Source: a virus. Taken from it: a DNA stretch of 33,366 nucleotides. The notes beneath the pieces are model-generated. The model saw nothing but the letters and a program-made list of their open reading frames with translations, had not been told where the DNA came from and ran no database searches. Both the position numbers and the translations under genes were made by a program. This document shows, one piece after another, positions 25,244-25,371 of this stretch. The stretch is taken from positions 1 through 33,366 of IMG/VR virus record IMGVR_UViG_3300003319_000064; one strand, 5' to 3'. Positions within the stretch are counted from its first letter, which is position 1, and each line of letters begins with the position of its first letter.

Positions 25244-25371
25244 AAGACTCGCACAGCAAAACAAAAATGTAAAAGAAATGATAATTCTTAGGTCTAGGTT
25301 CAACTCCTAGTGGCTCCATACATGGGGCTATGGTGTAATGGTAGCATGAAAAACACAAAACAACGAGTCTT
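25244..25371 (+). ncRNA. Circularly permuted tRNA-like RNA (CAGCA copy g)
   Basis: AAGACTCG pairs with CGAGTCTT at the ends, 2 bp after the CCA of tRNA-Asp. CAGCA lies 2 nt inside. Then T-arm CTAGG-TTCAACT-CCTAG (25294-25310), 3' acceptor strand TGGCTCC and A (25311-25318), TACAT, 5' acceptor strand GGGGCTA (25324-25330), which pairs with TGGCTCC, TG, and D-arm GTGT-AATGGTA-GCAT. The layout matches the permuted unit at 23215 with quite different bases, so pairing is conserved while sequence is not. CCA is not encoded here. Confidence 0.7.

Follow-up and report, generated by a model that had tools for sequence, protein, structure and literature searches.

A probable Y RNA with a complete, circularly permuted tRNA domain in a tRNA-rich phage contig

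In the permuted tRNA genes of red algae and archaea, the 3' half stands before the 5' half and processing yields ordinary tRNAs; permuted two-piece tmRNA has circularly permuted tRNA-like ends, the third acceptor pair of tmRNA being a G-U pair. Another RNA with a tRNA-like part is the bacterial YrlA, which, as described in passages of PMC8394870, joins a terminal stem tethering Rsr to a tRNA-like domain with D, T and acceptor arms; the YrlA described there, like the consensus of the YrlA family RF02553, has no anticodon arm. According to parts of PMC7790460 and PMC8058203, the Y RNA of D. radiodurans tethers Rsr to PNPase, and a passage of PMC7790460 raises YrlA as a competitive inhibitor for an anticodon nuclease. 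In phages, Y RNAs are known but little studied: passages in PMC12282133 and PMC7765460 treat phage Y RNAs and phage Ro proteins, and part of PMC7824862 treats ROT/TROVE proteins of jumbo phages. Mycobacteriophage Y RNAs are cited in PMC12282133 as already published, and for the Listeria phage CKA15 (P100-like) the same article, in its passages on this phage, reports an Rsr-like protein among the virion proteins as well as strongly transcribed noncoding regions just upstream of the Rsr-like gene, on the same strand, that are proposed as Y RNAs.

Here we describe a unit at positions 25244-25371 of a 33-kb virus contig (IMG/VR record IMGVR_UViG_3300003319_000064; all 33,366 nucleotides were analysed and are hereafter called the window), which has head genes and in which ARAGORN detects 26 tRNA genes. 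The unit is probably a phage Y RNA, a reading that rests on its architecture, on covariation across phages, on the recurrence of such elements beside Ro genes and on the Ro fold of a protein encoded in the window.

Architecture of the permuted tRNA domain

The unit starts directly 3' of tRNA-Asp and is closed by an outer stem of 8 bp (AAGACTCG/CGAGTCTT), the terminal pairing of Y RNAs (Table 1). CAGCAA heads an A-rich linker inside this stem, and a second A-rich linker follows the D-arm. The anticodon, GAT (GAU in RNA) at 25280-25282, lies in a perfect arm, AAGAA-AUGAUAA-UUCUU; the acceptor helix (25311-25317/25324-25330) pairs at 7 of 7 positions with two G-U pairs counted, has a G-U pair in the third position (G3-U70-like) and lacks CCA. 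The outer stem thus encloses every arm of a tRNA in circularly permuted order: the circle is opened between D-arm and anticodon arm, and the outer stem is inserted at that point. A parent tRNA for the two halves was not found within the window.

Table 1. Positions of the unit, of related elements and of the Ro-fold gene in the window.
Feature	Position	Strand	Basis or remark
Y RNA-like unit: outer stem and complete permuted tRNA domain	25244..25371	+	sequence, fold, covariance model, covariation
Outer stem, 5' strand AAGACTCG, presumed Ro-binding	25244..25251	+	pairs with 25364-25371
CAGCAA signature just after the 5' strand of the outer stem	25254..25259	+	enriched versus permuted motifs in Ro-encoding loci
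Anticodon arm AAGAA-ATGATAA-TTCTT	25273..25289	+	shuffles, fold, model; helix covaries in other phages
Variable loop, 4 nt	25290..25293	+	between anticodon arm and T-arm
T-arm CTAGG-TTCAACT-CCTAG, 5 bp	25294..25310	+	sequence, fold, model
Acceptor hairpin: TGGCTCC (3' strand), loop ATACAT, GGGGCTA (5' strand)	25311..25330	+	sequence, fold
D-arm GTGT-AATGGTA-GCAT, 4 bp	25333..25347	+	by arm search; absent from lone fold
Outer stem, 3' strand CGAGTCTT, then G	25364..25371	+	sequence, fold
Second permuted unit, short type: outer stem, CAGCA, no anticodon arm	23215..23302	+	sequence, fold
T-arm of the 23215 unit	23240-23256	+	
Acceptor hairpin of the 23215 unit, ACCA encoded in loop	23257-23277	+	
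D-arm of the 23215 unit	23280-23293	+	
Short Y-like element without tRNA domain, after tRNA-Met	16117..16168	+	copies at matching place in L002, L004, L005, L025
Short Y-like element after tRNA-Trp	16973..17031	+	
Small stem-CAGCA element just 5' of the Ro start codon	17034..17064	+	also in L002, L005, L025
Ro-fold RNA-binding protein (TROVE-like ring and vWA), presumed partner	17082..18551	+	profiles, predicted structure
Y-like element between Ro gene and tRNA-Gln	18594..18672	+	
Weak Y-like element, 5-bp stem GATGC/GCGTC, after tRNA-Cys	20667..20714	+	R2 E 0.1
Short Y-like element	21894..21935	+	
Y-like element holding degenerate tRNA-like sequence in normal order	23725..23835	+	R2 E 0.005
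Y-like element with small internal hairpin, no tRNA domain	25904..25981	+	

The unconstrained fold of the unit contains the outer stem, anticodon arm, T-arm and acceptor hairpin, the 4-bp D-arm not being formed, at -28.9 kcal/mol (z -2.53; 2 of 200 dinucleotide shuffles were as stable). For the anticodon arm, none of 2000 linker shuffles reached its score when one arm position was allowed; we rely on the test that allows three possible arm positions, which has the higher null and gives p 0.005. A covariance model (R2), trained on one unit from each of ten loci other than the window, recovers 25244-25365 with 77.9 bits (E 2.7e-14), the next best match in the window having E 0.005. In the three helices of the ten-unit alignment, 94.7% of the cells are paired, the covariation score is 0.993 as compared to 0.263 after shuffling and at most 0.186 after sliding, and 15 of the 17 pairs have changes on both sides in some sequence; such double changes are found at all 7 pairs of the acceptor helix and, for the anticodon helix alone, at 4 of 5.

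Sequence and model thus uphold what an earlier note on this DNA had claimed, namely a circularly permuted tRNA-like RNA of about 130 nt with T-arm, acceptor hairpin and D-arm in the order of a unit at 23215, an 8-bp outer stem and no CCA. The A-rich segments that it had placed between the arms and the outer stem are present as linkers, but the 5' segment contains the intact anticodon arm. What it overlooked is the outer stem with CAGCAA as a repeated module, the YrlA-type layout and a Ro-fold gene 6.7 kb upstream. Its doubt that the unit decodes appears justified, the unit being probably not a decoding tRNA. An ordinary tRNA is ruled out by score, the unit being absent from the 26 genes of ARAGORN and reaching 23.2 bits with RF00005 (cut-off 29); as a permuted tmRNA it was likewise rejected (RF04321, 8.9 bits, cut-off 47).

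Stem-CAGCAA elements and the Ro-fold protein

The window was scanned with the pattern stem, 1-4 bases, CAGCA, loop and closing stem. In its tRNA region, 10 of 27 CAGCA occurrences matched, as compared to a mean of 0.8 (maximum 3) for 28 other permutations of the motif, and the minus strand of the same region gave 0 of 10. Two of the matches, at 19393 (within a gene) and at 20059 (overlapping the 3' end of tRNA-Val), are regarded as chance, and the elements at 17034 and 20667 are too small for the limits of the scan; about ten elements are therefore counted. Two of these hold permuted tRNA domains, one (23725) a degenerate tRNA in normal order, and the rest none. The sequences of the outer stems vary between the copies in the window and only CAGCA(A) and the pairing are constant, for which reason a boxA/nut-like or promoter element was dropped as an explanation of the stem. 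Together, outer stem and CAGCAA make up a distinct module, of which the window has about ten copies interspersed with its 26 tRNA genes.

The other permuted unit of the window, at 23215, shares arm order, outer stem and CAGCA with the 25244 unit, whereas the anticodon arm is present only in the latter. Folded alone, it forms the outer stem, acceptor hairpin and D-arm without the T-arm (z -3.56, 0 of 200 shuffles), and R2 matches it weakly (13.5 bits, E 0.69). The alignment with this unit and with homologous phages that the earlier note had proposed bears out a common order, stem and CAGCA as well as covariation across phages, but it sets the 23215 unit apart in the missing arm and the low score. 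The argument from two independent copies also holds in part: R2 and covariation exclude chance, but the number was understated, permuted units being present in 24 of 98 loci.

Several further features of the window were noted. An 82-nt sequence at 16216-16297 aligns with the full length of the tmRNA family model at 39.7 bits (E 5e-13), below the cut-off of 47, and has the tRNA-like ends of a tmRNA, with CCA, but no coding part; a similar RNA was seen by eye near 14605-14681 of L002 (L numbers denote loci of the comparison sets). A probable tRNA-Ile(GAT), seen by eye at 21818-21889 and missed by ARAGORN, lies directly 5' of the Y-like element at 21894. Between 15900 and 30900 (e.g. at 18557, 21948, 22470, 24697, 25583, 26245, 29616 and 30312), a GC-rich block followed by an A/T-rich, TTAATA-like sequence stands before small ORFs and tRNAs and appears promoter-like, the matches being loose. 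A 71-base noncoding stretch (21433-21503) is 97% identical to L005 18307-18377, other matching stretches being mostly 65-86% identical. A terminase-like large subunit with an intein and a LAGLIDADG match is encoded at 9691-12258, and an RNA ligase domain protein (PF09414, PHROG_548), which fits a theme of tRNA repair, at 31816-32409.

The Ro gene lies on the same strand as the 25244 unit, 6.7 kb upstream of it, and is flanked by the elements at 16973, 17034 and 18594, not by the 25244 unit. Its product matches Pfam DUF7788 and DUF2828 as well as PHROG_850 ('RNA-binding protein', E 4.6e-151), and homologues occur in 675 of 50,697 phage records, many of them annotated 'Ro-like RNA binding protein', with 39-43% identity over nearly the full length among the best matches. 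Pfam TROVE (PF05731) does not match the protein, and a PDB search by sequence returned no Ro relative. An AlphaFold model from 35 aligned sequences reached pLDDT 82.9, prediction from the single sequence being poor (pLDDT 40). With this model, all 12 PDB matches of Foldseek at E<=0.001 are Ro/TROVE structures (best E 1.0e-8), among them Ro60 of Thermus phage phiLo and Rsr of D. radiodurans, and structural alignments gave Z 17.4 to 11.5 over 367-408 residues (Z 17.4 over 399). D291, S293 and S295, which we take to be the vWA metal-site motif, are invariant in both alignments. Judged by the predicted structure, the protein has the Ro fold.

Stem-CAGCAA elements also adjoin the Ro gene in unrelated phages of Bacillus, Mycobacterium, Synechococcus, Listeria, Enterococcus, Campylobacter, Klebsiella, Escherichia, Staphylococcus, Aeromonas and others. 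As the stem search selects paired stems, pairing itself is no evidence here, and only the contrast with permuted motifs and with the minus strand counts. In 23 Ro loci (including L004 and L005, near-identical over much of their length), 72 of 158 CAGCAA occurrences had a stem, as compared to a mean of 8.1 for 59 other permutations that include the motif-overlapping ACAGCA and AACAGC; the highest of these was ACAGCA with 62, and the minus strand gave 7 of 104. IMG/VR yielded no matches to the Ro protein alone, and loci were obtained via the portal gene and via an alignment. In 78 IMG/VR loci picked solely by protein, the count was 249 of 607 versus a mean of 19.4 for 57 permutations, the overlapping ACAGCA (165) and AACAGC (72) being omitted, and 27 of 354 on the minus strand; within this set L027 and L030 come from the contigs of L005 and L002, and pairs such as L036/L066 are near-duplicates, whereas L044 (a duplicate of L043) and L104 were omitted. 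At least one element was present in 71 of these loci and none in 7, with loops mainly of about 30-60 nt and a second group around 94-119 nt. In 80 loci of bacterial and archaeal genomes (genome_contigs), the figures were 229 of 470 versus 22.9 for 57 permutations (again without ACAGCA, 247, and AACAGC, 97) and 25 of 274 on the minus strand. An earlier covariance model, with the window unit in its training set and L044 and L104 likewise omitted, gave 127 matches, 126 of them on the Ro strand, a bias due in part to tRNA genes, as some partial matches (model 31-104 etc.) are probably ordinary tRNAs.

No convincing element was found within 4 kb of Ro in Aeromonas phage Ah1 and Cronobacter phage GAP32. 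The records of T4 (L136) and T5 (L135) lack the DUF2828 family, and 16 kb of each held no convincing copy and no R2 match at E<=0.001; the CAGCA-stem scan gave five scattered matches per stretch over both strands and only one on the T5 tRNA strand, opposite an annotated CDS, which gives no support for counting the stable RNAs of T4 and T5 as Y RNAs. Megablast of the tRNA region of the window against phages gave no match. An exact 16-base pattern occurred in 30 IMG/VR loci, near a rough chance estimate, with a closing stem in 8 of the 30, and was left out of further analysis.

The permuted tRNA domain itself recurs as 28 strict units, a few of them doubtful (e.g. L085 7155-7315 and those of L056 and L060), in 24 of the 98 loci scanned. 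In the 23-locus scan, the inner lengths of permuted units are mostly near 100-112 nt. Fifteen units were compared, including two from outside the strict set, L015 3622-3742 (added by hand after Rfam output) and L010 2583-2705 (from the 23-locus scan). The acceptor halves pair in all 15, at 5 to 7 of 7 positions with G-U counted as half. A fourth arm is present in 9 (expected 0.76, maximum 5 in 1000 shuffles), and the remaining 6, the 23215 unit included, fall below 4.5 of 5 pairs; singly, several fourth arms (L006 6524, L015 3437, L022 5528) are not significant. The arm takes three placements: a local anticodon arm 5' of the T-arm (25244, L006 6524, L015 3437, L017 6422), a stem that bridges the opening (L006 6132, L010 2583, L020 3658, L022 5528) and a local arm 3' of the D-arm with a CAU loop (L005 16158). 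The tRNA circle therefore seems, from these sequences, to have been opened at different points in different units, which would make them a clear case of one RNA fold circularly permuted at several opening points. In L009 and L013 the anticodon loops (GTT, GCT) look normal and their stems are weaker. The unit at L005 16158-16265 stands just before tRNA-Gln, and L005 and L025 have tRNA-like units at the place matching 18594..18672 of the window. In Bacillus phage BcoS-136 (L006 5937-6050), a Y-like stem surrounds an apparently whole tRNA in normal order.

Working model and alternative readings

Taken as a Y RNA, the unit may work in the manner of YrlA, a model that we consider about evenly poised. 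The phage's own Ro (Rsr) protein would dock on the outer stem and CAGCAA, and the interior would carry the complete permuted tRNA, from anticodon arm and variable loop through T-arm and closed acceptor hairpin to D-arm, so that one end would sit in the Ro ring and the tRNA-shaped end would be recognised by tRNA-binding partners. That the stem holds Ro and the other end recruits a tRNA-recognising partner is suggested by analogy with the Y RNA of D. radiodurans. The Ro particle might then channel or shield damaged or structured RNAs, such as host rRNA and cleaved tRNAs, during infection. We infer that the unit is transcribed as a separate RNA and bound by Ro, and its partners (PNPase or another nuclease) and function are put forward on the same footing.

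An alternative that agrees with the Y RNA identity, and competes only with a role in RNA decay, is that the permuted tRNA with its anticodon arm serves as a decoy that absorbs or inhibits an anticodon nuclease or another tRNA-directed defence of the host, Ro merely stabilising it. The anticodon arm is retained and covarying, the phage has many tRNAs and an RNA ligase domain protein (31816-32409), and the competitive-inhibitor idea for YrlA in the passage of PMC7790460 cited above points the same way; given the intact arm of the 25244 unit, that idea is worth testing. Most Y-like elements of the window have no tRNA domain, however, and a clear fourth arm is lacking in 6 of 15 units, which leaves this role unlikely. 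In its widest form, which we offer with similarly low confidence, phage Y RNAs would repeatedly capture whole tRNAs (with anticodons such as GAU, GCA, GGU and CAU) by permutation at various openings and keep the anticodon arm for an anticodon-directed enzyme, giving a Ro-held decoy or substrate trap against tRNA-cutting host defences, with a set of about ten Y-type elements in a single phage.

Decidedly less probable is a cis-acting element, that is a 5'-UTR or tRNA-processing structure controlling small downstream ORFs (25395-25577), possibly via Ro on the mRNA leader. Several copies do lie between a tRNA and an ORF, and the small copy just 5' of the Ro start codon recurs in L002, L005 and L025; but such a function would leave the tRNA-like domains unexplained, and the copies at 16117 and 18594 precede other RNA features and not directly an ORF. 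More improbable still is a true permuted tRNA gene, in which a cut in the acceptor loop would yield a two-piece tRNA-Ile(GAU) that, in its two pieces comparable to permuted tmRNA, would be charged and decode. No arm is missing from the 25244 unit, its anticodon loop is normal (U33, A37), its variable loop has 4 nt, and ACCA is encoded in the acceptor loop of the 23215 unit and of L010 1332-1459. Against this, the 25244 unit lacks CCA, the acceptor loops in other phages, mostly of 2 to 10 nt, almost never contain CCA, the outer stem and both linkers would separate the D-arm from the anticodon arm, and the score with the permuted tmRNA family is far below its cut-off. A fossil, in which a deletion would have joined the 3' part of one tRNA gene to the 5' part of an unrelated one, had been named by the earlier note as the finding that would overturn its reading; it is contradicted by the covariation and has hardly any probability. 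The window is crowded with 26 tRNA genes, and tandem duplication is a plausible source of permuted order, but the acceptor halves pair in all 15 units, every pair of the acceptor helix shows double changes in the ten-unit alignment, and the same order recurs within the same CAGCA stem in many unrelated phages.

For the preferred identity as a Y RNA, the signature (stem, a few bases, CAGCAA) marks Y RNAs beside DUF2828-type Ro genes in phages and bacteria and, being simple, makes them countable and testable. The intact, covarying anticodon arm suggests that some Y RNAs must look like complete tRNAs; if so, Ro particles would be tied to the fight between phage and host over tRNAs.

Comparison with known Y RNAs and permuted tRNAs

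The closest likeness is to bacterial YrlA (Salmonella; RF02553), which shares with the 25244 unit a closing terminal stem, an interior of T-arm, closed acceptor hairpin and D-arm in the same permuted order as in the RF02553 consensus, and a Ro-family gene in the region. One difference from YrlA is the complete anticodon arm, which lies 5' of the T-arm in the unit, and since this arm is absent from published YrlA the domain is not a plain YrlA; furthermore, CAGCAA is not part of the RF02553 consensus, and RF02553 matched neither the 25244 nor the 23215 unit up to E 10, even when the stretch alone was searched. The same family does match units of Enterococcus phage TJE2, Mycobacterium phage JoeDirt and Sinorhizobium phage phiM7 (two in L015 and one each in L022 and L010; E 2e-7 to 5e-4, below the gathering score), with weaker matches at a further place in L015 (E 0.16) and in L009 (E 4.5). 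With a YrlA-like architecture and no RF02553 match, the unit is called a Y RNA, with good confidence by its architecture and likely partner, and a YrlA-style working is proposed, but it is not filed under RF02553.

Compared with permuted two-piece tmRNA, no coding part or pseudoknots are seen in the 25244 unit; from the permuted tRNA genes of algae and archaea, units of this type differ in an acceptor loop that is usually without CCA and in a domain lying within a Y RNA stem. No report of Y RNAs with an anticodon arm turned up in a literature search, which is weak evidence of novelty, as most Y RNA papers lie outside the collection searched. Among phages, the mycobacteriophages Faith1 and JoeDirt (L009, L022) resemble the window in having stem-CAGCAA elements beside a 'Ro-like RNA binding protein', one of them with a permuted tRNA domain, but their three elements lie directly 3' of Ro, whereas about ten are scattered among 26 tRNAs in the window. 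In Listeria phage P200 (L014), a relative of CKA15, three stem-CAGCAA elements immediately precede the Ro gene; the putative Y RNAs of CKA15 itself are a proposal, for which the passages of PMC12282133 give no structure. Summed up, the set in the window is a variant that its copy number, its retained and covarying anticodon arm and its differing opening points appear to set apart from known phage Y RNAs.
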